64,000 nucleotides of DNA from positions 4,447,001 through 4,511,000 of the forward strand of contig NZ_CP163443.1 of NCBI RefSeq assembly GCF_041053055.1, given 5' to 3'. A program made the translations under genes and the position numbers. Shown in pieces: positions 13,240 through 58,119 of the stretch. Source of the DNA: Streptomyces sp. R41. Its GTDB lineage: Bacteria; Actinomycetota; Actinomycetes; Streptomycetales; Streptomycetaceae. The notes below the pieces were generated by a model that was not told the DNA's origin, ran no database searches, and saw only the letters and a list, made by a program, of their open reading frames with translations. Position 1 is the stretch's first letter. Each line of letters opens with the position of its first letter.

Positions 13240-14727
13240 ATGGATGTTTGGCTGGGATGTATGGGCGCAGACAGGGACAGGACGGGGGATCCGGTGGGCG
13301 ACGGGGTGGACGGGACTGCGGCGTTTTCCGGCGGTGGGTTCGGCCATGGATCCGGCGGTGGAATCGGCGGTGGGTCCGGCGCCGGCGGCGAGCCGGACTC
13401 CCACCGCGTCGTCCGGCGCGACGACGCCGTCCGGGCCGCCGTGGAGCAGGGACTCCTCGGGCCCGGAACCCCCATCGTCGCGCTCCTCGACGTCCCCGGC
13501 ATCCGGGCCTCGGCGGCAGCCCTGCGGGCCGCCTTCGACGCGGTGACCGCTCCCGGCACCCCCGTGCTGCACGCCTTCGCGGTGAAGGCGACCCCGCTCG
13601 TGCCCGTCCTGCGGCTGCTGCACGAGCAGGGCATCGGCGCGGAGGTGGCGAGCGCCGGCGAGCTGGCCCTCGCGCGGGCGGCCGGAGTAACTCCGGCGCG
13701 CACCGTGCTCGACTCACCCGCCAAGACGTCCGCCGAGCTGCGCGAGGCGCTGGCACTGGGCATCGCGGTCAACGCGGACAACCCGCAGGAGCTGGACCGC
13801 ATCGACGGCCTGGTGCGGTCCGCGAGCACCCGCTCCCCCCTCGGAATCCGGGTGAACCCGCAGGTCGGCGGGGGTTCCATCGAGGCGCTGTCAACGGCCA
13901 CGGCGACCTCCAAGTTCGGGGTCGCGCTGCGGGACGAAGGGGCCCGCGAGTGGATCGTCGGGGCGTACGCCGACCGCCCGTGGCTGACTCGGCTGCACGC
14001 GCACGCCGGGTCGCAGGGCATCCCGCTGTCACTGATGGCGCAGGGCGTGGCGGAGACGTACGCGCTGGCCGAGGAGATCAACCGGCGCATCGGGCGGCGG
14101 CAGATCGACACGATCGACATCGGCGGCGGGCTGCCGGTGAACTTCGGCTCCGACGCGACGACCCCGACGTACGCGCAGTACGCGCGGCTGCTCGCCGAGG
14201 TGGTGCCCGGGCTCTTCGACGGACGGTACGGACTGGTCACCGAGTTCGGACGGTCGCTGCTCGCCAAGCACGGGACCGTGCTCGCGCGGGTCGAGTACAC
14301 GAAGTCCGCCGGGGGCCGGGCGGTCGCGGTCACGCATGCCGGGGTCCAGGTGGCGGCCCGTACGGTGTACGCGCCCGCGTCCTGGCCGCTGCGGATCGCC
14401 GCGTACGACGCGAAGGGCCGCCCCAAGGCGGGACCGGACGTCGTCCAGGACATCGCGGGCCCCGCCTGCTTCGCGGGCGACCTCCTCGCCGAGGGGCGCG
14501 CGCTGCCGCTGCTCGAACAGGGCGACTACGCGGCCGCGCTGGACACGGGTGCGTACTACTTCGCCCACCACTACGCGTACAACTCCCTTGCCCGGCCGGG
14601 CATCTACGGCTTCGCGCCGGACGGGGAAGGCGGGGTGCGCTTCGCGGTCGTACGGGAGCCGCAGACCCTCGACGAGATCGTCGCGGAGTCGGGCGGGGCG
14701 CAGCCGTCGGCACTGACTGGGCTTTAG
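13240..14727 (+). CDS. PLP-dependent decarboxylase, DAP/Orn/Arg decarboxylase family 2
   Basis: 495 residues. Alanine-racemase-type barrel: PLP lysine in HAFAVKAT (residue ~110), substrate/phosphate motifs HAHAGSQG and IDIGGGLPVNFG, and the active-site Cys/Asp region GPACFAGD followed by DTGAYYFAHHYAYN. Most similar in pattern to diaminopimelate decarboxylase, but with an extra Gly-rich N-terminus; divergent from hutU rather than in a lysine cluster. A paralogue acting on another D/L-diamino acid is possible. ATG 13240 or ATG 13261 could start translation; neither has a strong Shine-Dalgarno site. The last ~25 bases, stop codon included, are tandemly repeated downstream. Confidence 0.82.
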   Translation: MDVWLGCMGADRDRTGDPVGDGVDGTAAFSGGGFGHGSGGGIGGGSGAGGEPDSHRVVRRDDAVRAAVEQGLLGPGTPIVALLDVPGIRASAAALRAAFDAVTAPGTPVLHAFAVKATPLVPVLRLLHEQGIGAEVASAGELALARAAGVTPARTVLDSPAKTSAELREALALGIAVNADNPQELDRIDGLVRSASTRSPLGIRVNPQVGGGSIEALSTATATSKFGVALRDEGAREWIVGAYADRPWLTRLHAHAGSQGIPLSLMAQGVAETYALAEEINRRIGRRQIDTIDIGGGLPVNFGSDATTPTYAQYARLLAEVVPGLFDGRYGLVTEFGRSLLAKHGTVLARVEYTKSAGGRAVAVTHAGVQVAARTVYAPASWPLRIAAYDAKGRPKAGPDVVQDIAGPACFAGDLLAEGRALPLLEQGDYAAALDTGAYYFAHHYAYNSLARPGIYGFAPDGEGGVRFAVVREPQTLDEIVAESGGAQPSALTGL

Positions 14728-14850
14728 TCCACCGCAGCCGTCGGTACCTACCGGGCTTTAGTCCACCGCAGCGGTCGGCACTCACGCGGCTTTAGACCAC
14801 CGCGGCCAGGAAGGCGCTCGCGCCGTCCGGGCTTCAGCCACCGCGGCGAG
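14700..14850 (+). repeat. Stop-codon-anchored tandem repeat after the decarboxylase gene
   Basis: The final part of the CDS (about 14700-14727, ending GGGCTTTAG) is repeated at 14728-14761 and 14762-14795, period exactly 34, each again ending CTTTAG; diverged copies follow to ~14850. The rest of the gap, 14851-15088, holds nothing I can name beyond GC-rich sequence and the leader of the next operon. Confidence 0.85.
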
Positions 14851-15088
14851 AAAGGCGCCGCGTCGTCATCGGGCGCGACGCCACGCCACCGCGCGCCCTG
14901 GCACACCCGCGCGCGCCCCCTGAAAGGTCTCCAGGGCGGCCCCAACCGGCCGGAAAATATGGCCAGTTGACCCACCTTAGTCACCCCAGGCATGTTCCAC
15001 AGGAAAATGCCAGAACCCTCACCCCTCGCGCACACGTTGCGTAACTTCGGCGTCACTCGGCCGAACCCTTGGCGGGAGGGGAGACACG

Positions 15089-15487
15089 GTGCCCGGAATC
15101 GACGAGTGCCTACTGGAAGCCATGACACTGCCCGGTGCCCGGGGTGCCGCGGTGGTCGACTGGACCAGCGGCCTGGCCCTGGGCACCGTCGGCGAGGCAC
15201 CGGGCGGTGACCACGAGACGACCGCGGCGGAGGCGGCCGAGCTGGCCCGGCTCGCCGCGGAGCACCGGGCGTTCGCCCCGGCCGACGGCTCCGACTGGTC
15301 CGAACGGGAGACCCCGGTCGAGGACCTGATCATCAGCAACCGCGACAGCTACCACCTGCTGCGGTTCGTGAGCACCACCTTCGACAGCAGTGTGTTCCTG
15401 CACCTGTGGCTGGCCCGCTCGGAGGGCAATCTCGCGCTGGCCCGCATCCGGCTCGGCGAGATGGCCGGACGGCTGGTGCTGGTATGA
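15089..15487 (+). CDS. Roadblock-like small protein (paralogue of 16896-17270)
   Basis: 132 residues from GTG 15089, which follows GGAGGGGAG at good spacing. The start GAAVVDWTSGLALGTVG closely matches GAALVDYTSGMALGTIG in the fourth gene of this operon, and both share a 'DSYHLLR' / 'DQYHLIR' strand, so the two arose by duplication. Compact alpha/beta proteins of this kind fall in or near the roadblock/LC7 family, which regulates small GTPases. First gene of a four-gene operon; its stop overlaps the next start (ATGA at 15484). Confidence 0.75.
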   Translation: MPGIDECLLEAMTLPGARGAAVVDWTSGLALGTVGEAPGGDHETTAAEAAELARLAAEHRAFAPADGSDWSERETPVEDLIISNRDSYHLLRFVSTTFDSSVFLHLWLARSEGNLALARIRLGEMAGRLVLV

Positions 15488-16296
15488 CGACGGTCAGGAC
15501 ACCTCCCCCGCCCCGGCTGCCCGTACGGGACAGAGCGACGGAGGCCGGTGGCGGTGTGTCGCCGATGCTCAGCCGGCTCGCCGCCGAGCGGGCCACCGGC
15601 GTCCTCCTGCGCGAGCGCGGCACGCTCTACCTCGCCGACGGCGACGTGGTGCACGCCGAGAGCCCGGCCACACCGGGGCTCGAGGTGCTGTTCGCCGCCC
15701 GCGGGGTGCTGGACGCCGAGGTGTGGCGGGAGGCCGTCGCCGCGGCCGGGGCACGCCACCGGGTCGGCCGCTTCCTGGTCGACAGCGGCCGGATCGCCAA
15801 GGGCGCGCTGGAGCTGTGCCACCTCGGCTCGCTGTACGACGCGGCGTACTTCGCGCTCGGGCCGAGCAGCACCCCGACCCGCTTCCGGTACGGCGCCGCG
15901 CACTGGCTCGGCCCCGTCCGCCCCGTGCCGGTGGTCGCACTGGAGCGCGAGACGGTGCGCCGCCGCGCGCTGCTGCACCGCATCTGGCCCGACCCGGCCA
16001 CGGACACCGCGCCACTGGTGCGCTCCAAACTGGCCGCCGGGCCGTCGGTCCCGCTGCGCCAGGAAGCCGTACTCGGCCGGGTGGACGGCGTGCGCACCGC
16101 GGCGGACGTCTCGCTCGCGCTGGGGCGGCCCGCGTTCCACACCCTGGTCGACCTGCGCCGACTGGCCGCCGCCGGGCTCGTGACGGCGGCGGTCCCGCCG
16201 CAGCCGCCTCCCGTGCCCGGTGTGCTCACCCAGCCCTCCGCCGATCCCGACGTCGCGTTGCTGCGGCGGCTGCGAGACGCGCTGGAGGCCCTGTGA
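15484..16296 (+). CDS. DUF4388 domain protein
   Basis: 270 residues from ATG 15484, overlapping the previous stop. Residues ~20-110 form a DUF4388 (PatA-N-like) domain: LAAERATGVLLRERGTLYLADGDVVHAESP, VLFAARG and GRFLVDSGRIAKG. The C-terminal third (VDGVRTAADVSLALGRPAFHTLVDLRRLAAAGLV) looks like a winged helix. DUF4388 proteins commonly occur with roadblock and MglA-type GTPase systems and response regulators. The roadblock neighbours support a signalling scaffold role, but no GTPase is encoded here. Confidence 0.8.
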   Translation: MTTVRTPPPPRLPVRDRATEAGGGVSPMLSRLAAERATGVLLRERGTLYLADGDVVHAESPATPGLEVLFAARGVLDAEVWREAVAAAGARHRVGRFLVDSGRIAKGALELCHLGSLYDAAYFALGPSSTPTRFRYGAAHWLGPVRPVPVVALERETVRRRALLHRIWPDPATDTAPLVRSKLAAGPSVPLRQEAVLGRVDGVRTAADVSLALGRPAFHTLVDLRRLAAAGLVTAAVPPQPPPVPGVLTQPSADPDVALLRRLRDALEAL

Positions 16297-16318
16297 GCCC
16301 CGACCCGCGGGAGGCCTT

Positions 16319-16879
16319 GTGATCCGCGCGCTGCGACAGCGTGCCGAGAGGAGACTGCTGATGGCGGCGGAGCCCGAAGTCCTCGATGAACTCCACCGGT
16401 TGAGGGCCCGCGTGCCCCAGCTCACCGGGGCGCTCGCGGCCAGCGTCGACGGTCTCGTCCTCGCCCAGGACACCCCCGGCGTGGAGCCGGAGGGCCTGGC
16501 CGCGCTCACGGCGGCCGCGCTCGGGGTCGCCGTGCGGATGGCGGACGCCACCGGGCAGGGCGACTTCCGCGAGCTGCTGGTGCGCGGCGTCCACGGCTAT
16601 GTGGCGACGTACGCGGCGGGCGCCTCCGCCGTGCTGACCCTGCTCGCCCAGGACCGGGTCAACGTCGGCCGGCTGCATCTGGAGGGGCGCCGCTCCGGCA
16701 CCCGGATCGGAGAGCTCGTGGACGCCGCGACGGCGCGCGGCGAACCGGCCGCACCGGCCGCACCGGCCAAGGCGTCCGCCAAGACCGCCACCGGCACTTC
16801 ACGGACCCGTACGGCGCGCGGCACAGCACCCGCGCGCACCACCCCTACCCCCAACACCCCGACCACATCGGAAAGCTGA
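16319..16879 (+). CDS. Roadblock/LC7 domain protein
   Basis: 186 residues if translation starts at GTG 16319, which has GGGAGG upstream; ATG 16361, preceded by AGAGGAGA, is an equally acceptable start. Residues ~20-130 match the roadblock/LC7 (MglB-like) fold: LDELHRLRARVPQLTGALAA, DGLVLAQDTPGVEPEGLAALTAA and LVRGVHGYVATYAAG. A Thr/Ala/Pro-rich tail of ~45 residues is probably disordered. Third gene of the operon, 22 bp after the DUF4388 gene. Confidence 0.82.
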   Translation: MIRALRQRAERRLLMAAEPEVLDELHRLRARVPQLTGALAASVDGLVLAQDTPGVEPEGLAALTAAALGVAVRMADATGQGDFRELLVRGVHGYVATYAAGASAVLTLLAQDRVNVGRLHLEGRRSGTRIGELVDAATARGEPAAPAAPAKASAKTATGTSRTRTARGTAPARTTPTPNTPTTSES

Positions 16880-16895
16880 AAGGAATCACAGCACC

Positions 16896-17270
16896 ATGGC
16901 CAACACCGAAACCGCGCTGAAAGAGGCGCTGGCATCCATCGAGGGAGCGACCGGAGCCGCCCTCGTCGACTACACCAGCGGAATGGCGCTGGGCACGATC
17001 GGCGGCAGCAAGGGCTTCGACCTCACCGTCGCGGCGGCCGGCAACACCGACGTCGTACGGGCCAAGCTCCGCACCATGGAGCACCTCGGCCTGAAGGGCG
17101 AGATCGAGGACATCCTGATCACACTGACCGACCAGTACCACCTGATCCGGCTGATCAAGGGCCGCGGCGGCAACGGGCTCTTCCTGTATGTGGTGCTCGA
17201 CGCCAAGCGGTCCAATCTTGCGATGGCCCGGCATCAGCTGAAGAAGATCGAGGCGGACCTGGAGGTGTAG
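16896..17270 (+). CDS. Roadblock-like small protein
   Basis: 124 residues. Starts MANTETALKEALASIEG, then GAALVDYTSGMALGTIG, an insertion-free alpha/beta body, LGLKGEIEDILITLTDQYHLIRLIKG, and a strand-helix end (SNLAMARHQLKKIEADLEV). Shorter and more regular than its paralogue at 15089. AAAGGA lies about 11 bases before the ATG. Last gene of the operon; it converges with the membrane protein gene with 19 bp between stops. Confidence 0.78.
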   Translation: MANTETALKEALASIEGATGAALVDYTSGMALGTIGGSKGFDLTVAAAGNTDVVRAKLRTMEHLGLKGEIEDILITLTDQYHLIRLIKGRGGNGLFLYVVLDAKRSNLAMARHQLKKIEADLEV

Positions 17271-17289
17271 CGAGTCCGCCTCGACACGG

Positions 17290-17859
17290 TCAGCGGCGCC
17301 GCGCTCCGCCGGGCGCGGCGTCGCCCGCCGCGACGCCGGTGGCCCGGCAGGCCTTGACCGGCTTGCCCGCGGGGGCGCCGGCGCCTCTGCCGAGCCAGTC
17401 GACGCGCACCCAGATCAGCGCCTGCTCGGCGCGTTCGCGACGCCCGAGCCAGCCGGCCTTCAGCCACAGGCCGACGCCCGCGCCGGCGAGCAGCATGCCG
17501 CCCGCGGCGGGCACCGCGAACGAGCTGCCCAGCGCGGCCACGAAGGCGACCAGGAGCCACCAGCGGTGGCCGCGGCGCCAGTTGCGTACCGTCACGGCGC
17601 GGTCCTGGAGCACATCGTGCTTACCGGCCCGGGCGGCGGAACGGACCAGGGCGGCGTACCGCTTCCGGCGCCAGTACGCCACCACGGCGCCCGCCACGAT
17701 GAACAGTGCCGCCCCGGCCATGACCCCGATCCGACGCCCGGTCAGCCCCGGCACCAGCACCCCGACCCCGGCCGCGAACACCCCGCACCACCACAGCGGT
17801 GCGGCTCCCGCCCGCACCACGACGGCCACCCGAGCCAGCCCCTGCCCTCCGCGCGCCAC
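17290..17859 (-). CDS. Small integral membrane protein, unknown function
   Basis: 189 residues with about four hydrophobic segments in two hairpins (APLWWCGVFAAGVGVLV / GVMAGAALFIVAGAVVAYW, and WWLLVAFVAALGSSFAV / GMLLAGAGVGLWL) separated by a basic loop (RRKRYAALVRSAARAGK). The C-terminus is soluble and basic. I do not recognise the family. It is a single minus-strand gene between the roadblock operon and the RpiR regulator, about 100 bp from the latter. Confidence 0.65.
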   Translation of the reverse strand: MARGGQGLARVAVVVRAGAAPLWWCGVFAAGVGVLVPGLTGRRIGVMAGAALFIVAGAVVAYWRRKRYAALVRSAARAGKHDVLQDRAVTVRNWRRGHRWWLLVAFVAALGSSFAVPAAGGMLLAGAGVGLWLKAGWLGRRERAEQALIWVRVDWLGRGAGAPAGKPVKACRATGVAAGDAAPGGARRR

Positions 17860-17955
17860 GATCCGCCTCCCGTCTCAGCGCCTCTTTGGGCGCGCACGCT
17901 AGCGAGGAAAGGTGAGACGAATCTGAGAAGGCACGGGTGCTCCACCAAACCGTGA

Positions 17956-18816
17956 CTACTCCACGAACAGGCCCCTGGCGGCAGCCCGCGTGTCGAACTC
18001 CTCCAGCCGGGCCTGCGCGTCCGGCAGGTCGTCGCACATCGCTTCCAGGAGGACGCGGCCCAGCAGCATCGGGGCGCAGGCCGTGTCGAAGGCGAGGCCG
18101 GTGCCGACGGCGGCGGGAAGCAGCAGGTCCGACACCTTCGCCACCGGCGCGAAGGCGGAGTCGGCGACCGTGACGACGGTCAGCCCGGCCTCCTTCGCGT
18201 AGCCGAGGGAGTCGACGACCTCGCGCGGATGCCGGGGCAGCGCGAAGCACAGCAGTGCCGTCGCCCCGGCCCTGACCGCCGCGTCGATGCGGTCGTGGAG
18301 CATCGTGCCGCCCTCGTGCAGCAGCCGTACGTCGGGGTGGACCTTGGCGGCGAAGTACGCGAAGCCGTACGCCTGGGAGGCGGCGGCCCGCAGGCCGAGG
18401 ACGGGGAGCGGGCGGGAGGCGGCGAGCAGGCGGCCCGCCTTCGCGACCGGGCGCGGGTCGGCGAGCACCTCCGCGAGATGCTTCAGGTTCTCGATCTCGG
18501 CCTCGACGGCCTGCTGGTACTCGTTGTACGACCCCGAGTCCACCGTCTGCTCCGCCGGCGCGACCTCGCGCAGGTGCCTGCGCAGCGCGGGGTAGCCGTC
18601 GAAGCCGAGCGCGACCGCGAAGCGGGTCACCGACGGCTGGCTGACCCCGGCCAGCTCGGCCAGCTCGACGCTGGACAGGAACGGTACGTCGGCGGCGCTG
18701 CGCACCATGCTGTGCGCGATGCGCCGCTGGGTCGGCGTCAGCCGGTGCCCCTCGAAGAGCGCCTGCAGCCGTGTGGCAGGACTGTCCGTCACGTTCATAT
18801 CCCTGTCCACGCTCAT
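17956..18816 (-). CDS. MurR/RpiR-family transcriptional regulator
   Basis: 286 residues: N-terminal HTH_6 domain (LTPTQRRIAHSM, SSVELAELAGVSQPSVTRFAVALGFDGYPALRRHL) and a C-terminal SIS domain (~120-270; LGLRAAASQAYGFAYFAAKV, HDRIDAAVRAGATALLCFALPRHPREVVD). RpiR proteins sense phosphosugars or other small ligands. The ATG overlaps the stop of the lyase gene (18813-18816), so regulator and lyase are made together, and a divergent transporter operon lies beyond. It probably controls the locus; the 20483-20502 palindrome is a candidate target. Confidence 0.88.
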   Translation of the reverse strand: MSVDRDMNVTDSPATRLQALFEGHRLTPTQRRIAHSMVRSAADVPFLSSVELAELAGVSQPSVTRFAVALGFDGYPALRRHLREVAPAEQTVDSGSYNEYQQAVEAEIENLKHLAEVLADPRPVAKAGRLLAASRPLPVLGLRAAASQAYGFAYFAAKVHPDVRLLHEGGTMLHDRIDAAVRAGATALLCFALPRHPREVVDSLGYAKEAGLTVVTVADSAFAPVAKVSDLLLPAAVGTGLAFDTACAPMLLGRVLLEAMCDDLPDAQARLEEFDTRAAARGLFVE

Positions 18817-20378: not shown

Positions 20379-20482
20379 AACGCCCAGACTCCCCTCAATA
20401 CGGACATTGGATCTTGCCTGGTGGTCATAAGTAACGAGCGATTAACGCGGGACCGTTGACAACCTATTCAGGTACAGAGAAC

Positions 20483-20502: not shown

Positions 20503-20520
20503 CCGGGCAAGGGACACCTC

Positions 20521-22873: not shown

Positions 22874-22887
22874 GGAGCCGAAGAACC

Positions 22888-23820: not shown

Positions 23821-23823
23821 GGG

Positions 23824-25570: not shown

Positions 25571-25601
25571 TTGACAGAGGGGCTTGTTAACCGCTTAAGT
25601 T
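25571..25601 (+). promoter_or_regulatory. Candidate promoter of the amidohydrolase operon
   Basis: TTGACA at 25571-25576 and TAAGTT at 25596-25601 with a 19-base spacer. The -10 element lies inside the palindromic operator array, which suits repression by the divergent LacI protein. Confidence 0.5.
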
Positions 25602-25625
25602 AACCGCATAAGTGAAGCGGTTAAC
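25586..25625. promoter_or_regulatory. LacI-type operator array (three GTTAACCGC sites)
   Basis: GTTAACCGCTT at 25586-25596 is the exact inverted complement of AAGCGGTTAAC at 25615-25625, and a third direct copy GTTAACCGCAT lies between them at 25599-25609. The site is 84 bp from the LacI start and 100 bp from the amidohydrolase start. Confidence 0.7.
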
Positions 25626-25725
25626 CACACTCAGACCAGTCAGACCACCTTTCCCCTCAGACCACCTTTCCCCTCAGACCACCCCTCCCCGAAGATCGAG
25701 GACCCGAAGACCCGAGGACCGCCGC

Positions 25726-27273: not shown

Positions 27274-28692
27274 ATGGCGGAACTGGTGGAGCAGCGCTCG
27301 ATCGATGTCGTGCCGGACGGCGAACGGCACGGCACCGCCTTTTCCCAGTTCACGTTGTGGCTCGGAGCCAACCTCCAGATCACCGCCGTGGTCACCGGCG
27401 CGCTCGCGGTCGTCTTCGGCGGTGACGTGGTCTGGTCGATCGTCGGGCTGCTGATCGGCAATCTGCTCGGCGGTGCGGTCATGGCGCTGCACTCGGCACA
27501 GGGCCCCAAGCTCGGACTGCCCCAAATGATCCAGTCCCGCGCGCAGTTCGGGGTGCGCGGAGCCGTTGTCCCGCTGCTCCTCGTGATCGTGATGTACGTC
27601 GGCTTCTTCGCCAGCGGCAGCGTGCTGGCCGGTCAGGCGGTCGGCGAGCTGACACACACCGGCGACACGACCGGAATCGTGGTCTTCGCCGCCGTCACGG
27701 CGGTGACGGCCGCGGTCGGCTACCGGGTCATCCACGCCCTCGGCCGGGTGGCGAGCGTGATCTGCGCGCTCGCCTTCGTGTATCTCGGGATACGGCTGCT
27801 GGACCGGGCCGACGTCGGCGCGCTGCTCGGCGACGCCCACTTCTCGCTGCCCATGTTCCTGCTGGCCATGTCGCTGTCCGCGTCCTGGCAGCTGGCCTTC
27901 GGGCCGTACGTCGCCGACTACTCGCGCTATCTGCCGCGTACGACGTCGGGGCGGGCCACCTTCTGGTGGACCCTGTCGGGCTCGGCCGTCGGCTCGCAGT
28001 GGTCGATGACCTTCGGGGTGCTCGTCGCGGCCACCGCGGGCGAGAAGTTCCTTGCGAGCCAGGTCGGTTACGTCGTCGCCCTCGGCGGTACCGGCCTCGT
28101 CGCGTCCTTCTTCTACTTCGTGATCGCGCTCGGCAAGCTGACCATCAACGTGCTCAACACGTACGGCGGCTTCATGTCGATGGTCACCGGTATCAGCGGC
28201 TTCCGGGGGCAGCGGGTGCTCTCGCGGCGCGGCCGGGCGGCGTACATCGGTCTGATCATGGTGGCCGGCACGGCGGTCGCCCTGCTCGGCAAGGACAGCT
28301 TCCTGTCCTCGTTCAAGGACTTCCTCCTCTTCCTGCTGACCTTCTTCACGCCGTGGTCGGCGATCAACCTGGTCGACTACTACCTGATCTCGAAGGAGCG
28401 GTACGACATCCCGGCCCTCTTCGACCCCAACGGCCGCTACGGAGCGTGGCGCTGGGACGCGCTCGGGGTGTACGCGGCGGGGCTGCTCGCCCAGCTTCCC
28501 TTCCTCGCGACGAGCTTCTACACGGGCCCGTTGGTGGAGCCGCTGGGCGGTGCGGACGTGTCGTGGATCGTGGGTCTGGCCGTACCGGCGCTGCTGTATT
28601 GGCTGGTCGCACGGCGCAACACGGCGCACATCCCGGAGCGGACGGCGTATCCGCCGGTTCCCGATCAAGAGCCGGTATCGCCGCGGCGATGA
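27274..28692 (+). CDS. NCS1-type purine/cytosine permease
   Basis: 472 residues from ATG 27274 (GAGAGGA upstream). About twelve hydrophobic segments; motifs SQFTLWLGANLQI, NLLGGAVMALHSAQGPKLGLPQM (classic NCS1 start), FGPYVADYSRYLP and TPWSAINLVDYYLI. NCS1 carriers move nucleobases, allantoin, hydantoins or thiamine-type rings with H+ or Na+. It lies 111 bp after the thiol dioxygenase gene on the same strand and may import the substrate of that operon or be separately transcribed. Confidence 0.88.
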   Translation: MAELVEQRSIDVVPDGERHGTAFSQFTLWLGANLQITAVVTGALAVVFGGDVVWSIVGLLIGNLLGGAVMALHSAQGPKLGLPQMIQSRAQFGVRGAVVPLLLVIVMYVGFFASGSVLAGQAVGELTHTGDTTGIVVFAAVTAVTAAVGYRVIHALGRVASVICALAFVYLGIRLLDRADVGALLGDAHFSLPMFLLAMSLSASWQLAFGPYVADYSRYLPRTTSGRATFWWTLSGSAVGSQWSMTFGVLVAATAGEKFLASQVGYVVALGGTGLVASFFYFVIALGKLTINVLNTYGGFMSMVTGISGFRGQRVLSRRGRAAYIGLIMVAGTAVALLGKDSFLSSFKDFLLFLLTFFTPWSAINLVDYYLISKERYDIPALFDPNGRYGAWRWDALGVYAAGLLAQLPFLATSFYTGPLVEPLGGADVSWIVGLAVPALLYWLVARRNTAHIPERTAYPPVPDQEPVSPRR

Positions 28693-28795
28693 TCTGACGA
28701 CGAATCAACCAAGTGTCGTTAAACGGCCACTCAGGGTGAATGTTCCTGTGCGTACGGTGAATGAGCGCTACACGAACAACTCCTGAGGGAGCGTC

Positions 28796-29464
28796 ATGCC
28801 CTCGAACCGCAGGGCCTTTCTGGCGGCGACCACCGCCGCGCTCACCGCGACGCCGGCCGCTTCGGCCGCCGCCGCGCCGCATCCACACCCACATCCGACG
28901 ACCGCCCGTGGGGCCCTCGCCGAACTCCTCGCGGGCAACCGGAGGTACGCCGCCGGACGTTCGCGTCATCCGCACGAGGGGAGTGCTCGGCGGCATGTCC
29001 TCGCCGCCGAGCAGCACCCGTTCGCGGTTGTCGTCGGGTGCGTCGACTCCCGTGTGCCGCCCGAGCTGGTCTTCGACCAGGGGCTCGGGGATCTGCTCTG
29101 CATAAGGACCGCCGGCCAGGTGCTGGACGAGGCGGTGCTCGGGTCCGTCCAGTACGGGGTCGAGGTTCTGCACATTCCGTTGGTGCTCGTGCTGGGGCAC
29201 GAGCGGTGCGGGGCCGTTGCGGCGACGCTCGCGCATCTCCGCGACGGGACGCCCGTGCCGGGGCATCTCCGGTTGTTGGTGGACGAGATCATGCCTGCGG
29301 CCCGGCGGACCTGGGGTCGGCCCGGGGACTGGGCCGATCTCACCGTGCGGGCGCATGCGGCGTGGGTGCGGGACGCCATCCGGGCGGACCCGGCGTTCGC
29401 CTCTGCCGAGGTGGCTGCCGCGCGGTTCGATCTCGACAGCGGGCGGGTTGCCGTGCTGCCGTGA
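28796..29464 (+). CDS. Beta-carbonic anhydrase with Tat-type signal
   Basis: 222 residues. N-terminus NRRAFLAATTAALTATPAASA is a twin-arginine signal, so the enzyme is exported. Zinc ligands: VVGCVDSRVPPE (Cys, Asp-Arg) and LGHERCGAV (His-x2-Cys), typical of beta-class enzymes. It interconverts CO2 and bicarbonate outside the membrane. The SulP transporter 669 bp downstream suggests a bicarbonate-handling pair, as in known SulP/CA fusions. The last codons, GTGCTGCCGTGA, are the first unit of a tandem repeat that continues past the stop. Confidence 0.9.
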   Translation: MPSNRRAFLAATTAALTATPAASAAAAPHPHPHPTTARGALAELLAGNRRYAAGRSRHPHEGSARRHVLAAEQHPFAVVVGCVDSRVPPELVFDQGLGDLLCIRTAGQVLDEAVLGSVQYGVEVLHIPLVLVLGHERCGAVAATLAHLRDGTPVPGHLRLLVDEIMPAARRTWGRPGDWADLTVRAHAAWVRDAIRADPAFASAEVAAARFDLDSGRVAVLP

Positions 29465-29575
29465 ACCGTCGCCGGCCTGAGCCGTTGCTGCCGGGTGCCC
29501 TTGCTGTCCTGAGCCCTTGCTGTCCTGAGCCCTTGCTGCCCAGGGGCCTTTGCTGCCCTGAGCCCTTGCTGCAAC
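29450..29575 (+). repeat. Stop-codon-anchored 16-17-bp tandem repeat after the carbonic anhydrase gene
   Basis: The unit CCCTTGCTGTCCTGAG (16 bp) is present in about six to seven copies; the first, diverged copy is the end of the CDS itself (CCGTGCTGCCGTGA). Most copies keep a TGA at the position of the gene's stop codon. Confidence 0.8.
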
Positions 29576-29633
29576 CGTGCCCGGCGCTGTCGGCTGTGCC
29601 CACCCGTTCCGCCCTGCGGAACGACTGCCCACA

Positions 29634-30136
29634 GCGGGAGCGGGGGGTAGCGGTAGCCGTCGCGGTCTCCGCGTCCGCGCCCACAGCGGTGGCGGTATCT
29701 ACGGCGGCTGTCGCGTCCGCCACAGCGGGAGCGGGGGGGTAGCGGTAGCAGTTGCGGCCTCCGTGTCCGCGCCCACAGCGGTGGCGGTATCCGTGGCGGC
29801 TGTCGCGTCCGCGCCACAGCGGTAGCCGTCGCGGACGCACCGCCCGCGCCGATAACCGCAGCCGTCGCAGAAGCCTCCCCTACAAGCGAAACCCCCGCCC
29901 CCGCTCTCGCCCTCGCCCTCGCCCTCGCGGAAGCCACGCCCACAACCGAAGCCGTCGCAGAAGCCCCACCCACTCCCGAAACCACCGCCCTCGCAGAAGC
30001 CCCGCCCACAACCGAAGCCCCCGCCATCGCGGAAGCCGCGCCCTCGGCGGTGGCCGTTGTGGCTGCCGTCACCGGTGCCACGCGGTGCGCCCCCTCACCC
30101 GCCAACTCCCACGCGAAGAAGCCACACCCCCCATGA
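29634..30136 (+). pseudogene. Frameshifted Ala/Val/Pro/Glu-rich open frame with ~90-bp duplication
   Basis: Two near-identical ~90-bp copies (about 29634-29724 and 29725-29823) encode Ala-Val-rich peptide such as SAPTAVAVSTAAVASA, each in a different frame; a third frame then continues AVADAPPAPITAAVAEASPT to a repetitive AEAPPTTEA stretch and stops at TGA 30134-30136, which overlaps the SulP ATG. Repairing two single-base shifts gives one continuous low-complexity reading frame of ~165 codons. It may be a decayed or length-variable gene formerly coupled to the transporter. There is no identifiable start or function. Confidence 0.4.
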
Positions 30137-31746
30137 AGCGATCCCCCGCCCTTACCCGGGCCCTGTCCGTTCTCCCCGCCCCCGCCGACTTCCTTTCCAT
30201 GACTCGTGCCCCACGGCGCGACCTCCTCTGTGGGCTCACGGTCGCCGTGGTTGCCCTACCGCTCGCGCTCGGGTTCGGGGTGACCTCCGGGCTCGGGGCC
30301 GCGTCCGGACTGGTCACCGCGATCGTCGCGGGGGCGCTGGCCGCGCTGTTCGGTGGGTCGGCGAGACAAGTCAGTGGGCCCACGGGGGCGATGACCGTCG
30401 TGCTCGTGCCGATCGTCCACGAGTACGGCGCCGACGGGGTGCTGACCGTCGGGCTGATCGCCGGAGTGATGCTGCTGGCGCTCGCGTTCGCGCGGGCGGG
30501 GGCCGCGATGGCGTACGTGCCGGCGCCCGTGATCGCCGGATTCACCGTCGGCATCGCCTGTGTGATCGCGTTGCAGCAGGTGCCGTCGGCGCTGGGCGTA
30601 CCCGTACCGGGCGGCGACCAGGTCGCCGCGGTGGCGGCGCGGGCGGCGGAGGAGTTCGGGCGGGGCCCGCAGTGGGCGGCGCTCGCGCTGTCGCTGGGGG
30701 CGGCGGCGGTGATGCTGGCGGGGGCCCGCTGGCGGCCCGGCGTGCCCTTCTCCCTCGTCGCCGTGGCCGCCGCGACCCTCGTCGCGGAGGGGCTCGGATT
30801 GCACGTGGCCCGGATCGGCAGCCTGCCCGCCTCCCTCCCGGCTCCCTCCCTCGCCTTCTTCGACGTCTCCCGCGTGCCGTCCCTCCTCGCGCCCGCCGCC
30901 GCGGTCGCCGCCCTCGCCGCGCTGGAGTCCCTCCTGTCCGCCTCCGTGGCGGACGGCATGCGCCCCGGTGAGCGCCACGACCCCGGCAAGGAACTCTTCG
31001 GCCAAGGCATCGCCAACCTCGCGGCCCCGCTGTTCGGCGGCGTACCGGCGACGGGAGCCATCGCGCGTACGGCGGTGAACGTCCGTACCGGCGCGGCCTC
31101 CCGCCTCGCGGCGCTCACGCACGCGGTGATCCTCGCCGGGATCGTCGCGGCGGCGGCCCCGCTGGTGGCACGGATCCCGCTGGCCTCGCTGGCGGGAGTG
31201 CTGCTCGCCACCGCCGTACGGATGGTGGAGACGGACGCCGTACGGGCGATGGCGCGCGCCACCCGCGGGGACGCCCTCGTGCTGGCGCTCACCGCGTTCG
31301 CGACGCTCGCCCTCGACCTGGTGCGGGCGGTGCTGCTGGGCCTCGCGGTGTCCGTGCTGCTCGCCCTGCGCGCGGCGGTCCGGGGCACCCGGCTCACCCC
31401 CGCCGCGGGCGACGAGGGGCCGGGGTGCGCGGAGGTCACGTATCGCTTCGACGGGCCGCTGCTCTTCGCCGCGGCCCACCGTTTCCGGCGCAGCCTCGCG
31501 GATGTGCACGGGGTGTCGGCGGTCGACCTGCGGATGTCGGGGCTGACGGCGGTCGACGCGACGGGCGCGCTGGCGCTGAAGGACGCGGTGGGGGATCTGC
31601 GGGGCCGGGGCATCGAGGTCCGCATCACCGGAGTCGAACGGGGTCACCGCAAGGTCCTGGAGTCCCTCGGCGTGCTGCCCTCGGGGGCGCAGCCCAGTTC
31701 CAACAGGGGGGCTATCCCCAGTGCCTCGGGGGCCTCGGCTCCCTAA
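30133..31746 (+). CDS. SulP-family anion transporter with STAS domain
   Basis: 537 residues from ATG 30133. About ten to twelve membrane helices with the SulP signature region GLTVAVVALPLALGFGVTSG, RQVSGPTGAMTVVL and ELFGQGIANLAAPLFGGVPATGAIARTAVNVRTGA. C-terminal STAS domain (~440-520) with MSGLTAVDATGALAL. SulP proteins carry bicarbonate, sulfate or other anions; the exported carbonic anhydrase upstream favours bicarbonate, by inference. The final ~20 residues are Ser/Gly/Pro-rich and variable. Confidence 0.9.
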   Translation: MKRSPALTRALSVLPAPADFLSMTRAPRRDLLCGLTVAVVALPLALGFGVTSGLGAASGLVTAIVAGALAALFGGSARQVSGPTGAMTVVLVPIVHEYGADGVLTVGLIAGVMLLALAFARAGAAMAYVPAPVIAGFTVGIACVIALQQVPSALGVPVPGGDQVAAVAARAAEEFGRGPQWAALALSLGAAAVMLAGARWRPGVPFSLVAVAAATLVAEGLGLHVARIGSLPASLPAPSLAFFDVSRVPSLLAPAAAVAALAALESLLSASVADGMRPGERHDPGKELFGQGIANLAAPLFGGVPATGAIARTAVNVRTGAASRLAALTHAVILAGIVAAAAPLVARIPLASLAGVLLATAVRMVETDAVRAMARATRGDALVLALTAFATLALDLVRAVLLGLAVSVLLALRAAVRGTRLTPAAGDEGPGCAEVTYRFDGPLLFAAAHRFRRSLADVHGVSAVDLRMSGLTAVDATGALALKDAVGDLRGRGIEVRITGVERGHRKVLESLGVLPSGAQPSSNRGAIPSASGASAP

Positions 31747-49820: not shown

Positions 49821-49856
49821 GATCTTTTGAGCGGAGGCCTCGAGTGAGGCAGGGGG

Positions 49857-50393: not shown

Positions 50394-50410
50394 TTGTCTT
50401 TCTGGTCAGT

Positions 50411-50887: not shown

Positions 50888-50921
50888 GAGTCCCGCCTCC
50901 CCGGTGCAAGCCCGTCACGTG

Positions 50922-50966
50922 CGTACGTCCCCGCACACGGTACGGGACCGAGTACGGGGACGTACG
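50922..50966 (-). terminator. Hairpin between enolase and ftsB
   Basis: CGTACGTCCCCG (50922-50933) and its complement (50955-50966) form a 12-bp stem with a GC-rich loop, downstream of the enolase 3' repeats. Confidence 0.6.
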
Positions 50967-50991
50967 TACGACGCTTCCTACGACGCTACGG

Positions 50992-52456
<1,465 letters not shown>

Positions 52457-52700
52457 CTAACCGCCTCCGGGGGATCGGCCAGCCGGTCGACCACCCCTTG
52501 GGCAGAACCGAGAGTAAATTGTTTCCGAACGGAACAAAAACCTGCCCCGTACACGAAACTCGCCGCGCACGAGAGCCGCGCACAAAAAGCCCCGCCCCGG
52601 TGCGTACGGGGGAACACGCACCGGAGCGGGGAGCCCGTGGGGACGGGGGACCCTCACGAGGCCTTCACTATGGAGACCACGTATAGGAGAGGGCTGTGGT

Positions 52701-52823
52701 TCAGCTGCGAGCCCGTTGTGGACTTCAGCTGCGAGCCTGTTGTGGACTTCAACTCCGAGCTCGTTGTCGACTTCGGCCGCGAGCTCGTTGTCGGCTTCAC
52801 CCGCGAGCCCGCCGCCGACTCGG

Positions 52824-52826
<3 letters not shown>
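52701..52826 (-). repeat. 24-bp tandem repeat starting at the stop of the Rpf gene
   Basis: Five contiguous units of exactly 24 bp fill 52701-52820; the bases immediately beyond (to 52826) include the rpf stop TGA in the same AGCTGA context that begins two of the units. On the minus strand most units keep a TGA in frame with the gene. Confidence 0.85.
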
Positions 52827-53510
<684 letters not shown>

Positions 53511-53515
53511 TCACC

Positions 53516-53666
53516 GACGCCTGCGAGGTGAGCTGTCGGGTTCGGGCGGGTGAGTGCCCGGTCGTACGCCACTGGCGCACGGCTTCACCCCAAGCCACTC
53601 CCGGTCAACTACCGGGCGCGGCGCTTACCTTGGGTCCCCCGCTCCTGCCTACGGCGCTGACGCGTC
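53516..53666 (-). promoter_or_regulatory. ydaO-type c-di-AMP riboswitch upstream of rpf
   Basis: Conserved blocks in order on the minus strand: GGCAGGAGCGGGGGACCCAA (53649-53630), CTTGGGGTGAAGCCG (53594-53580) and CGAACCCGACAGCTCACCTC (ending in GCAGGCG), with closing stem GACGC/GCGTC (53666-53662 with 53520-53516). Known ydaO switches of Streptomyces sit before rpfA and turn it off when c-di-AMP is high. It lies 18 bases before the start. Confidence 0.88.
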
Positions 53667-53848
53667 GACTGTTCCCGTACGGCCGTTGGCAGGATTCGGC
53701 GTTGCGACCGTCGGGGCCCGCTGTGGCGAGCGGTGATGACCGTAGACATGCGATCGGCGGAATTTCAAAGACGATCAGGGCTTCTGAGACTCATATCTCA
53801 CTTGCGCCAAACCGGACATTCCACGGCGAACCATGACGCGAACTCCCG

Positions 53849-54817
53849 CTACTTTTCGCCCGATTCAGCACCAACTGCAAGGCTCTGACCGGGGAGGATG
53901 AGGTCGGGATCGGTGCCGACCGCATCCTTGTTCTCGGCATACAGCTCGGTCCATCCGCCCTTGAGGTCAAGGGAGTCGGCGATGGTCCAGAGACTGTCTC
54001 CGGCACGCACGACGTAGGAGCCGTCGGCGGCGTCACGGGAGGCGTCGGAGCCGCGCGAGGCGTGCCGCCCGGAGGCGCTGTCCGTACGACCGTCGGTCGC
54101 GCCCTCCGTCACGCCCTCGTCGGCGCTGTCGCCGCGGTGGCGCCCGGCGCCGGACGTCGCACTGCCGGACTCGGCCGAAGAGTCGTCGTTCTGGCCGGAC
54201 TTGTCCGACTCGTCAGCCTTGGGCGTTTCTGTATCCGAGCTGTCGGAACCCTGTGAGGCGTCGGACTTCGTCGAGTTCTCGGTCGCGTCCGAGGGGGCGT
54301 CGGACGAGGAGTCGGAGCCCAAGCCGGATGAGTCGGATGAACCGGACTCGGCAGACGAACTGGACGAGCCGGACGAATCAGTGGAACTCGACGAGCTCGA
54401 TGAGTCGTCCGCCACACCCGTGTCGACCTCGACCGAGCCGGAGTCCTTGCTGAGCCCGGAGAGCGGTCCACAGGTCGGCCAGGCGGCGAAGCCCTGGCCG
54501 TCGAGGACCTTCTCGGCGACGGCTATCTGCTGCGAGCGGCTGGCCTGGTCGGCGCTCGGGGCGTATTCGAGGCCGCCGTACGACTCCCAGTTCTCCTGGG
54601 TCAACTGCAGCCCGCCGTAGTACCCGTTGCCGTCGTTCGCGCTCCAGGCGCCGCCGCTCTCGCACTCCGCGACCCGGTCCCAAGTGGTGCCGTCGGCCGC
54701 GCTCGCGCTGGTGGCGCCGAGCAACGGGATCGCGATGGCCGATCCGGTCACTCCTGCGGCGACGATGAGGGCCGGGGCCTGACGGGGGCGACGATGACGG
54801 CCGTTCCCGGAGAGCAT
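53849..54817 (-). CDS. Second Rpf/LysM protein with acidic Ser-rich linker
   Basis: 322 residues from ATG 54817. Signal peptide (1-40, ATSASAADG), Rpf domain with TTWDRVAECESGGAWSANDG and GYYGGLQLTQENWESYGG, WPTCG; then ~140 residues of Ser/Asp/Glu low complexity (SSSSSSTDSSGSSSSSAES and more) and a LysM (YVVRAGDSLWTIADSLDLKGGW). Paralogue of the previous gene with a far longer, strongly acidic spacer. Its 200-bp leader lacks the ydaO blocks, so the two are regulated differently. Confidence 0.92.
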   Translation of the reverse strand: MLSGNGRHRRPRQAPALIVAAGVTGSAIAIPLLGATSASAADGTTWDRVAECESGGAWSANDGNGYYGGLQLTQENWESYGGLEYAPSADQASRSQQIAVAEKVLDGQGFAAWPTCGPLSGLSKDSGSVEVDTGVADDSSSSSSSTDSSGSSSSSAESGSSDSSGLGSDSSSDAPSDATENSTKSDASQGSDSSDTETPKADESDKSGQNDDSSAESGSATSGAGRHRGDSADEGVTEGATDGRTDSASGRHASRGSDASRDAADGSYVVRAGDSLWTIADSLDLKGGWTELYAENKDAVGTDPDLILPGQSLAVGAESGEK

Positions 54818-55016
54818 GCGGAAGCCTTTCGCGTGACAGCAGGTGACGACAGCCGCTACAGCGACTGCAGCGACGGATGGGCCGCGTTGATGGGTGAACG
54901 TATCCGCACTCGAACGCTTGTCACAAGTCGATGCAGCGTAGATCACGTGAAGATCACAGAGCTGAGGGAGCGTCACTTTTTCGCTGCCGAGCGGCCGCTC
55001 CCTGCACGCCCGCCGA

Positions 55017-56303
55017 CTACGGACGGGACAAGTCAAGCGGAGGCGTGAACTCCACGGGAAGTGTGCGCAATCCACGCATAATGAGCCCACCACGCCAGCG
55101 CAAATCGGCCGAATCTCCCGCGAGTTGGAGATCGGGGAGGCGGGTGAGCAGGGTGGCGAGCGCGGTCTGGCCCTCCAGGCGGGCGAGCGGCGCGCCGAGG
55201 CAGTAATGGATGCCGTGGCCGTACCCGAGGTGTTGGTTGTCACGTCGCGAGAGGTCGAGCGTGTCCGGCTGCTGGAACCGCTCGGGGTCACGGTCCGCTG
55301 CCGCCAGTACGACGAGGACGGGGTCGCCGGACGCGATGTCCTGCCCGCCGATCCGGACGGGCTCGGTCGCGAACCGCCACGTGGCGAGTTCGACGGGGCC
55401 GTCGTAGCGCAGGAGTTCCTCGACGCCGGTTTCGAGGAGTCCCGTCTCCTTGGCGGCGAGGGAGGCCTGCAGTCGCTGTCGCTGCTCGGGGTGGGTGAGG
55501 AGGGCGTAGGTGCCGTTACCGATGAGATTGACGGTGGTCTCAAACCCTGCGAACAGCAGGATGAACGCCATCGCGGCGGCCTCGTTCTCGGTGAGGTGCT
55601 CGCCGTGGTCGGAGGCGCGGATGAGCCCGGAGATGAGGTCCTCGCCCGGGGCGGGCTCGTCCGGGAGCAGTTCGCGCTTGCGATGGATGAGTTCGGCCAA
55701 ATAGCCGCGCATCTTTTTCACGGACCGCGCGACCCCGCCCCGCGGCCCTCCCCCGTGCCGGATCATCATCCCCGCCCAGTCCCGGAAGTCGTCCTGGTCC
55801 TCACGGGGGACGCCGAGCAGGTCGCAGATGGCGTAGATGGGGAGCGGGAAGGCGAACTCGTGGATGAGATCGGCGGAGCCCTTGTCGGCGAACTGGTCGA
55901 TCAGGTGGTCCGTGAGCTCCTGCACACGCGGCGCGAACTCGGCCACCCGGCGCGGCGTGAACGCCTTGCTGACCAGCCGCCGCAGCCGGGTGTGGTCCGG
56001 CGGGTCGATGTTCAGCAGATGCGTCATCAACTCGGCCTTGCGCTCACCGGGGATACCGGTCTTCCCCTTGGCATGCGCGGGCTCGTCGTGATGGGCGGGA
56101 TTCTTGGACAGCCGCGCGTCGGCGAGCGCCTGCTTGGCGTCGACGTACCGGGTGACCAGCCAGGCCTCCACCCCACTGGGCAGCCGGGTCCTGTGCACGG
56201 GGGCGTGCTCCCTGAGCCAGGCGTACGCCGGGTAGGGGTTGGTGGCGAACTCCCACGTGAAGAGTTCGGGGGCGGCGCTGGAGGGCTGGGGCTGGTCGGT
56301 CAC
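55017..56303 (-). CDS. Cytochrome P450
   Basis: 428 residues from GTG 56303. I-helix AGFETTVNL, K-helix EELLR, heme loop GYGHGIHYCLGAPLARLE with the Cys ligand. Class I bacterial P450, CYP107-like in pattern; substrate unknown. The GTG has an AAGGAG directly abutting it, too close for a normal ribosome site, and overlaps the stop (GTGA) of an upstream open frame, so translation may be coupled or leaderless. No ferredoxin gene is adjacent. Confidence 0.9.
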   Translation of the reverse strand: MTDQPQPSSAAPELFTWEFATNPYPAYAWLREHAPVHRTRLPSGVEAWLVTRYVDAKQALADARLSKNPAHHDEPAHAKGKTGIPGERKAELMTHLLNIDPPDHTRLRRLVSKAFTPRRVAEFAPRVQELTDHLIDQFADKGSADLIHEFAFPLPIYAICDLLGVPREDQDDFRDWAGMMIRHGGGPRGGVARSVKKMRGYLAELIHRKRELLPDEPAPGEDLISGLIRASDHGEHLTENEAAAMAFILLFAGFETTVNLIGNGTYALLTHPEQRQRLQASLAAKETGLLETGVEELLRYDGPVELATWRFATEPVRIGGQDIASGDPVLVVLAAADRDPERFQQPDTLDLSRRDNQHLGYGHGIHYCLGAPLARLEGQTALATLLTRLPDLQLAGDSADLRWRGGLIMRGLRTLPVEFTPPLDLSRP

Positions 56304-56632
56304 TCCTTGACGGTATCGGGAGGGGGCCGGGGTGCCTGGGCCGACCAGCGGTCGGCCCAGAACTGGAAGAGATCCGCGAGGGCGCGTGCTGCGCCTCGGT
56401 CACCTCGCGCGCGAGTGGTTCCAGGCAGGGCACTGCGGCGAGCCTTCCGTTCTCCGCGAGACGAAACCCACGGTCCGCATCGCCCTGCGGTGCCCGAGGC
56501 CCGCTGCGAGGCGAAACCGGTCGAACGACTCCGCTGCCACCCCTCCGGCTTCCGCCGGACGATGACCTGTGCCGGCTCCGCCGCCAACTCCGGTGCCACC
56601 ACGTCCCCTTGCGCCCGAACGCCCTGGACCAA
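56300..56632 (-). pseudogene. Possible decayed ORF overlapping the P450 start
   Basis: The frame ending ALADLFQFWADRWSAQ stops at TGA 56300-56302 inside the P450 GTG. Upstream, protein-like sequence switches to another frame (GFRLAENGRLAAVPCLEPLA), which would suggest a frameshifted remnant of a small gene. Evidence is weak. The remainder of 56304-56737 shows no other gene. Confidence 0.2.
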
Positions 56633-56700
56633 CGGTTCTCAGCCACGTCCTCGCCGGCCCCGTCTGCTTCACCCCGGACTGTCCGTAAATCACCTGCTGT

Positions 56701-56737
56701 TTGACTTCGCGGCTCGAGAACTCCCTACATTCGCGCC
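56701..56737 (+). promoter_or_regulatory. Promoter giving a leaderless globin-reductase mRNA
   Basis: TTGACT (56701-56706), 19-base spacer, TACATT (56726-56731). Only 6 bases separate the -10 box from GTG 56738, so transcription should start at or next to the start codon; no Shine-Dalgarno site is present. Confidence 0.6.
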
Positions 56738-57949
56738 GTGGACCCCGAAATACTCAGATCCAGCTTCGCGGTCGTCGAGAGACGGGCCGAGTTCGCGGTC
56801 AAGTACTTCTACTCGCACCTGTTCCGGCACCACCCGGAGATCCGCGGACTGTTTCCGGTGGACTTCCCGGAGGACATGGAGCGGCAGCGGGACAGACTGT
56901 TCGCGGCGCTCACGTATGTGATGGAGCGGCTGGAGGATCCGGAGCTGCCGAGGTACTTACGGGAGCTCGGGAGGGACCACCGGAAGTATCTGGCGGAGCC
57001 GGAGCACTACGCCGCCGTCGGGGCGAGTCTGATCGCCGCTTTCGCCGTCGTCGCGGGGTCGGCGTGGAACGCGGAGGTCGAGAAGGCCTGGGGCGAGGCG
57101 TACGGGGCGATCACGAATGTGATGCTGCAGGGCGCGTGGGAGGCGCAGCAGCACGGCGAACCGCCTTGGTGGGACGCCGAGGTGATCGCCCGGACGCGGC
57201 ACGGCGACGACCTCGTCGTACTGACCCTGCGACCGCGCCGCCGGCTGCGCTACTCCCCCGGCCAGTACGTCAGCGTCAACGTCGCCCATCTTCCGGGCAT
57301 TTGGCGGCCGTACTCGCTGGCCAACGCGCCCCGCGCCGACCACACCGTCGACCTGCACATCAGCCGGGTCGAGGACGGCGTCCTCTCCACCGCGCTCGTC
57401 CGGCAGACCCGGGAGGGCGACGTCCTGCGGCTGGGCGCGCCCGGCGGCGGGCTGACCCTGCGCACGCCCGTGGAACGGCCCCTCACCCTCATCGCGGCCG
57501 GCACCGGATGGGCACCCGTGAAGGCGCTGCTGCAACAGCTCGACGACACGCACGAGGCCCGGCTGTTCCTCGTCGCCCGCGACACCTCGTACCTGTACGA
57601 CCGGGACGCCGTCGAGCGGTTGCAGGCCCGGCTTCGGCGGCTCGCCGTCACCTTCATCACCCCCGCGCCCGGCCGGCCCAAGGCCCAGGCGACCGAACGG
57701 CTGCTGACCGCGCTGGGCAACCGCGCCGGCTGGACCCGGCACGACGTCTATCTCGCCGGTCCGCCCCAGCTCGTCGAGGAGATCGGCGAGACGCTGCCCG
57801 CTTTCGGCACGCCGACAGAGCGGATCTTCCACGATGTCCTGGCACCGACCGGCCGCGGGAACCCCCGGCCGGTGGGCGCGGCGGAGTGGCTCCTCGATCG
57901 TCCACAGCCGAGCTGGCACAACCCGTCGAGCCGCGCCCCGCAGGCGTAA
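56738..57949 (+). CDS. Globin-reductase (flavohemoglobin-like) with a TTA codon
   Basis: 403 residues. Globin domain (1-135: FAVKYFYSHLFRHHPEIRGLFP, proximal His in RDHRKYLAEPEHYAAVG), then an FAD domain (~150-245; SPGQYVSVNVAHLPGIWRPYSLANAP) and an NAD-binding domain (PLTLIAAGTGWAPVKALLQQL, DVYLAGPPQLVEE). Flavohemoglobins detoxify nitric oxide. A ~45-residue Arg/Pro tail is extra. Codon 74 (56957-56959) is TTA, the only in-frame one I found in the window, so translation should need bldA. Likely leaderless. Confidence 0.88.
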   Translation: MDPEILRSSFAVVERRAEFAVKYFYSHLFRHHPEIRGLFPVDFPEDMERQRDRLFAALTYVMERLEDPELPRYLRELGRDHRKYLAEPEHYAAVGASLIAAFAVVAGSAWNAEVEKAWGEAYGAITNVMLQGAWEAQQHGEPPWWDAEVIARTRHGDDLVVLTLRPRRRLRYSPGQYVSVNVAHLPGIWRPYSLANAPRADHTVDLHISRVEDGVLSTALVRQTREGDVLRLGAPGGGLTLRTPVERPLTLIAAGTGWAPVKALLQQLDDTHEARLFLVARDTSYLYDRDAVERLQARLRRLAVTFITPAPGRPKAQATERLLTALGNRAGWTRHDVYLAGPPQLVEEIGETLPAFGTPTERIFHDVLAPTGRGNPRPVGAAEWLLDRPQPSWHNPSSRAPQA

Positions 57950-57980
57950 CTCCGGCCCGGCCGCCCCGGCTCCCCCGATC

Positions 57981-58119
57981 GTCAGGCATCCGACCCTCAC
58001 CCCCGGGGCTTCAGGTACCCGGCCCTCAGCCGTCCCCCTCCGCCCCCGGCCTCAGGCACCCGGCCCTCAGCCGTCCCCCTCCGCCCGGCCCCTCAGGCAC
58101 CGGCGCTCAGTCCCCCGCG
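57981..58119 (-). repeat. Stop-codon-anchored ~40-bp repeat after mazG
   Basis: Units of 40-41 bp at about 58091-58119 (contains the mazG stop), 58051-58090 and 58010-58050, with a decayed fourth to 57981. Shared core on the minus strand: GGGGGACGGCTGAGGGCCGG; the gene's own end is GGGGGACTGAGCGCCGG. Confidence 0.82.

Follow-up and report, generated by a model that had tools for sequence, protein, structure and literature searches.

The window analysed here, a 64,000-nucleotide stretch of a 10.46-Mb bacterial chromosome (G000:C1:4447001-4511000), contains short tandem arrays at the 3' ends of five genes: those for a pyridoxal phosphate (PLP)-dependent decarboxylase, a carbonic anhydrase and enolase, plus rpf and mazG, all with Pfam matches that support their names (Table 1). 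The original prediction was that at each of these genes an array starts within the last codons and covers the stop. With arrays delimited by Tandem Repeats Finder (TRF) and gene ends taken from open reading frames (ORFs), this is true of the decarboxylase, carbonic anhydrase, enolase and mazG, where arrays with periods of 34, 16, 48 and 41 bp enter the coding sequence (CDS) by 29, 11, 10 and 4 nt respectively, stop included. It is not confirmed for rpf, where TRF leaves a gap between stop and array and a degenerate first unit extending to the stop is arguable only by eye. The units look unrelated between loci, as had also been claimed.

Table 1. Tandem arrays and stop codons at the five genes, in window positions.
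Feature	Position	Strand	Evidence
34-bp x 3.2 array over the PLP-dependent decarboxylase stop	14699..14807	+	TRF; ORF 13240-14727; Pfam PF02784, PF00278
Decarboxylase stop codon TAG, within the first unit	14725..14727	+	ORF end
41-bp x 2.0 second array, overlapping and then extending past the 34-bp decarboxylase array	14788..14867	+	TRF
16-bp x 7.4 array over the carbonic anhydrase stop	29454..29572	+	TRF; ORF 28796-29464; Pfam PF00484; one-copy state in L124
Carbonic anhydrase stop codon TGA	29462..29464	+	ORF end
48-bp x 2.2 array over the enolase stop; both extra units read in frame as copies of the enolase tail	50992..51098	-	TRF; translation; orthologues
Enolase stop codon TGA	51089..51091	-	ORF end
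24-bp x 4.7 array beginning 12 nt past the rpf stop, which it does not cover	52700..52811	-	TRF; Pfam PF06737, LysM
rpf stop codon TGA	52824..52826	-	ORF end
41-bp x 2.6 array including the mazG stop and 1 nt	58007..58110	-	TRF; Pfam PF03819
mazG stop codon TGA	58107..58109	-	ORF end

The enrichment of arrays at stop codons is genuine and is not limited to the source genome, and its strength varies by genome. Our sample comprised 1.6 Mb of the source chromosome (1299 called genes) and 400 kb from each of two relatives, G015 and the repeat-poor G009, with the main counts made at a TRF score of at least 70 and a period of at least 10. Genes were called with a custom codon-usage script, which missed the carbonic anhydrase at its first threshold and found it, with a truncated start, at a later one. 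In the source genome 45 arrays span a stop, 6 span a start and 2 span both, alongside 129 intergenic and 93 coding arrays. When the non-coding arrays were re-placed evenly, with CDS overlap kept below one period, 14.9±3.7 were expected at stops and 17.4±4.4 at starts. Both comparisons proposed with the original prediction, stops against shuffled positions and stops against start codons, come out in its favour in this genome. The same holds in G015 (15 stop-spanning, 1 start-spanning and 1 spanning both, with 4.0±1.7 expected at stops and 6.0±2.4 at starts); in G009 the asymmetry is not clearly seen, with 3 arrays at stops and 3 at starts against 1.4±1.1 and 2.1±1.3 expected. Summed over the three genomes, the ratio of stop to start is 63:10 (p ~1.6e-10). 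In a further 41 Streptomycetaceae loci, 18 arrays span stops and 2 span starts at a score of at least 60. Outside the Streptomycetaceae, 29 of 38 loci from other actinobacteria were usable (8 were dropped for length or GC content and 1 for too few genes); these yielded 7 arrays at stops and 1 at a start, against 2.65 and 2.9 under the null, counts too few for more than a trend. Nor can the arrays be put down to chance, because first-order Markov random DNA yields 4 arrays per 400 kb at a score of at least 50 (1 at 70 or above) and the real chromosome has 538 in 1.6 Mb at the former threshold. In the sampled part of the source chromosome, the 56 stop-spanning arrays with scores of at least 60 correspond to about one gene in 23.

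A premise of the original prediction was that ordinary intergenic repeats should not begin inside a CDS. That premise is wrong. A tandem duplication that enters the CDS by less than one period keeps the first copy intact and therefore leaves the protein unchanged, so that an overlap of this size is silent. The part within the CDS is shorter than one period in 41 of the 45 stop-spanning arrays of the source genome counted above, in 48 of the 56 found there at the lower threshold, and in 16 of 18, 3 of 4 and 16 of 18 in G015, G009 and the 41 Streptomycetaceae loci; several of the exceptions overshoot by a few bases only. The position of the stop within the first unit is variable (quartiles of overlap divided by period are 0.40, 0.57 and 0.85 in the source genome, all periods), which is not as expected from anchoring on the stop itself. 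Periods are divisible by three in 138 of 146 arrays lying within CDS and in 21 of the 56 stop-spanning ones.

Array 5' edges are excluded from the parts of genes where a duplication would change the protein, and they are depleted near starts. Our main edge tests exclude arrays with periods that are multiples of three, since such periods were seen in as many as 83 of the 158 'intergenic' arrays, which points to uncalled coding genes; results for all periods are given alongside. On this basis, edge density in the source genome is 0.00-0.08/kb in the part of the CDS lying over 40 nt ahead of the stop, 0.35/kb from 40 to 20 nt before it and 1.13/kb in the final 20 nt of the CDS. It is 0.81/kb in the first 20 nt after the stop, 0.5-0.6/kb at 20-100 nt and 0.15-0.24/kb beyond 100 nt; within 40 nt of starts it is 0.04-0.24/kb. 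Comparing the interval of one period (P) before the stop, [-P,0), with that after it, [0,P), gives edge counts of 32:21 in the source genome, 14:10 in G015, 1:4 in G009 and 10:9 in the 41 loci. Divided by gap type, the three genomes have an even count in convergent pairs (22:22), and their tandem pairs show 24:13.

Taken together, these observations are very probably explained by ordinary short tandem duplications that survive mainly where the protein or the start region is left unchanged; the stop-codon pattern is real and mostly neutral. Short duplications, with periods mostly of 14-54 bp, would arise throughout the repeat-prone, GC-rich Streptomyces chromosome. Where the copied segment covers a stop, the first copy would keep the old C-terminus and stop, and later copies would lie in non-coding DNA, so that the protein would not suffer wherever an array started, provided that it entered the CDS by no more than one period. 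Slippage, or else unequal exchange among units, would then add further copies, and the units would decay. We infer both this molecular step and the neutrality of the process. If correct, largely neutral copying can create a stop-codon pattern that looks designed, which advises caution in inferring function from such patterns. The pattern also makes it possible to gauge how often short duplications arise in actinobacteria and how C-terminal tails and 3' spacers change.

An alternative that we regard as unlikely is a mutational hot spot at stops, produced for example by the end of translation, by transcription pausing or termination, or by convergent polymerases meeting. The threefold excess over uniform placement would favour it. 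As the only null, however, uniform placement was judged too lenient, since it ignores gap size and promoter side, and we replaced it with a gap-matched null in which each array is moved only inside the gap it occupies and must stay silent, with the three genomes and 41 loci pooled. Convergent gaps of all sets match this null: 23 of 45 arrays span a stop against 19.6±2.5 expected, an excess that is not significant, and their mirror count, as noted, is even. If edges are allowed to wobble to 1.25 periods, the figures become 27 of 49 against 23.3±2.8 in convergent gaps and 28 of 111 against 19.4±3.6 in tandem gaps.

Several results nevertheless weigh against ordinary duplication as the whole explanation, and some of them speak for a hot spot. 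Even in convergent pairs, 5' edges are densest less than 20 nt from the stop, thinning from about 2/kb there to 0.6-0.9/kb at 20-100 nt; either a mild hot spot or constraint by terminators could lie behind this. Taken alone, G015 leans towards stops even where gaps are convergent (8 of 12 against 5.2±1.3). At the strict setting tandem (same-direction) gaps have 25 stop-spanning arrays of 108 against 15.5±3.3 expected, and the pooled gap-matched count is likewise in excess, at 48 of 153 against 35.0±4.2 (z 3.1) or, when arrays of every period are counted, 78 of 280 against 58.8±5.5 (z 3.5). All-period mirror counts favour the stop side in most sets (57:37 in the source genome, 17:15 in G015, 4:5 in G009, 17:12 in the 41 loci), although these are uncorrected for gaps shorter than one period, which favour the CDS side. 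To this must be added the 18 non-multiple-of-three arrays that violate the overlap limits and were omitted at the strict setting, and our dependence on custom gene calls. Most of the pooled excess, however, comes from tandem gaps, on whose far side the promoter and ribosome-binding site of the next gene lie; avoidance of that side is the probable cause. A stop-specific hot spot is therefore not needed to explain where the arrays fall, and a mild one near gene ends may exist.

The original prediction also raised the idea of selected back-up stops or 3'-end structures, which would guard against read-through or stabilise the 3' end. Every unit carries a stop triplet by construction, and later units retain it in 22 of 29 cases when in frame and in 23 of 38 when out of frame, a difference without statistical support (Fisher p=0.20). 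But the periods of stop-spanning arrays ignore frame, 25 of 78 being divisible by three (p=0.90), and in the indel-free arrays of the source genome and G015 the bases of the stop triplet are no better kept in later units (171/201, 85.1%) than other bases (1472/1718, 85.7%). A short GC hairpin can be picked out by eye in the enolase units; across 71 stop arrays, however, units fold like their shuffled counterparts (mean z 0.01), the corresponding mean for 92 intergenic arrays being -0.37. A published study, too, finds that additional stops are not under selection in eubacteria (PMC6764699). Neither form of selection is supported by these results, and we think such a function very improbable.

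A related candidate holds that arrays occupy the stretch from stop to terminator. It was set aside after local folding of 58 array-bearing genes and 298 controls gave no clear structure peak immediately past the array end. At enolase the array ends ahead of an inverted repeat in all 5 array-bearing genes in which the repeat is recognisable, a sixth being without the motif; this motif was picked by eye and is present in 41 of 52 genes. Spacer filling thus remains an impression, drawn from enolase.

Ordinary duplication of gene ends is also consistent with the history of single loci. The original prediction had suggested comparing orthologues for differences in copy number; between species, presence or copy number does differ among relatives at enolase and carbonic anhydrase, where orthologues have single-copy states or different arrays and reveal the units as duplicates of the end of the gene concerned. 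The closest carbonic anhydrase orthologue found, in L124 (80% identity), has the unit once, over its own stop, with no array. At enolase, the source genome has two extra units beyond the coding copy, L044, L296, L297 and L298 have one, and most others have none; different arrays of 24-25 bp lie over the same stop in L050, L066 and L082, which stand apart on the enolase tree, and 24-base copies are apparent by eye in L299. Of 52 enolase genes, 6 have a TRF array over the stop at a score of at least 45. At rpf, orthologues in L044, L045, L055, L061 and L068 have, by eye, an apparent degenerate copy of the gene end after the stop, and stop-spanning duplication may recur there too. Full-length matches to the decarboxylase array are confined to the source genome among 199, with pieces of up to 54 bases in 21 others.

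These histories bear on two further alternatives. Under reading-frame creep, an array would first have lain wholly downstream, and loss of the old stop would have extended the ORF to its present end within the array. C-terminal tails of the decarboxylase and MazG do differ in length among relatives. However, array-bearing enolase (FKG*, the asterisk marking the stop) and carbonic anhydrase (LLP*) end where several array-free orthologues end, and the many overlaps longer than one period that creep predicts are few (8 of 56), so that we give this explanation very little credence. That a small dispersed or mobile element resembling MIRUs (mycobacterial interspersed repetitive units) inserts at stops is scarcely credible: the stop position recurs and 89 of the 198 other genomes contain weak or partial matches to DNA of the mazG array, but units look unrelated between loci, a 17-base enolase-tail pattern from relatives, allowing up to 2 mismatches, occurs less often in 31 genomes than the same pattern reversed as a control (136 against 225 matches), the decarboxylase array is, as noted, full length in one genome, and orthologues identify the carbonic anhydrase and enolase units as those genes' own ends.

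Some further arrays at gene ends were observed in passing. In the 3.7-5.3 Mb stretch of the source chromosome, a 1401-codon gene ending in IGTN* has a stop-spanning array, and a 1351-codon gene in G015 (4.0-4.4 Mb) has the same end; the arrays differ, at 24 bp and 29 bp respectively, and this is likely a second case of recurrence at one stop, with orthology putative. The same source stretch has a 377-bp x 2.6 array over the ends of small, apparently tandem-copied genes. Behind the carbonic anhydrase, window positions 29454-30046 hold successive different arrays by TRF (16 bp x 7.4, 92 bp x 2.1 and a 30-36-bp family). The gene caller placed no gene at 28692-30280, in the same run that missed the carbonic anhydrase.

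Enolase also raises the question of whether arrays contribute to protein change. Tail switching was noticed at window 51089-51098 and in L043-L085, L295-L297, L300-L303, L307 and L310. We compared C-terminal tails in 52 genes, of which 30 are short (FKG* and alike), 20 long (FRSADQ* and alike, a set that includes FQHEG* of Catenulispora) and 2 unclassified. On an enolase tree built without the tail, short and long forms interchange at least 12 times among the 50 classified genes, and a single clade for long tails is rejected (p_AU 0.0004, for a group defined once the tree had been inspected). Tail type is accompanied by a silent base in the arginine codon just before it, whose third position is C in 27 of 28 scored short-tailed genes and G in 18 of 20 long-tailed ones. 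The coding tail of the source enolase is SAFPRFKG*, and its extra units, in frame, read AFPLVRSADRGHGKG* and VFPHVRSADHGHSKA*; a long-type tail sequence, like FRSADQ*, thus lies non-coding behind a short tail. Because the sequence of the other tail type is present in this position, enolase fits a scheme in which stop-spanning duplication is a route to C-terminal change, with alternative tails stored behind the stop and swapped by loss or exchange of units. We consider this scheme doubtful: the second unit of L298 is out of frame, resolution of the enolase tree is weak (of 48 inner branches, 18 are starred), and the tail changes could alternatively reflect 3'-end exchange between species. Tail switching via arrays is proposed for enolase only, and a general link between arrays and tail change is conjectural. 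With at least 12 changes, the enolase tail is a small, tractable case.

MIRUs sit at overlapping stop and start codons. They form one dispersed sequence family, in contrast to the arrays described here, which share no obvious sequence (PMC2734929). Actinobacterial minisatellites and variable-number tandem repeats (VNTRs), such as the exact tandem repeats (ETR) and MIRU-VNTR loci of M. tuberculosis, are, like our arrays, non-coding arrays of units of tens of bp whose copy number varies among relatives; the effect on expression reported there comes from an array upstream of a gene, whereas ours lie downstream (PMC2734929). Head-to-tail copies with decay between units, a VNTR-type trait, are what TRF finds here. 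Borg elements of archaea offer a positional parallel: their tandem arrays are intergenic or have the first unit in or partly in a gene end, have independent origins and, where they lie within ORFs, are divisible by three (PMC9879509). Borg units, however, are perfect, A-rich and extrachromosomal, and ours are GC-rich, imperfect (often 70-90% alike) and chromosomal (PMC9879509). TAACTGA repeats in Beggiatoaceae have been reported to overlap upstream stops; they consist of a single 7-bp motif, lie mostly before start codons and are thought to be regulatory (PMC4679880); the arrays here have longer, unrelated units and avoid start regions. Fail-safe in-frame stops resemble the arrays in placing extra stops downstream of the primary one and differ in that ours are without frame preference or stop conservation, in agreement with the negative result for eubacteria noted above (PMC6764699). 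Among the literature matches listed, judged by title and the start of the abstract, none describes stop-spanning arrays in Streptomyces. We file the arrays with neutral non-coding tandem repeats, to which a simple positional rule is added.

Elsewhere in the window (25586-25683), a 13 bp x 3.0 array and a perfect 17 bp x 2.6 array lie between divergent genes, beside a LacI-family regulator, and are possibly operator-like repeats.

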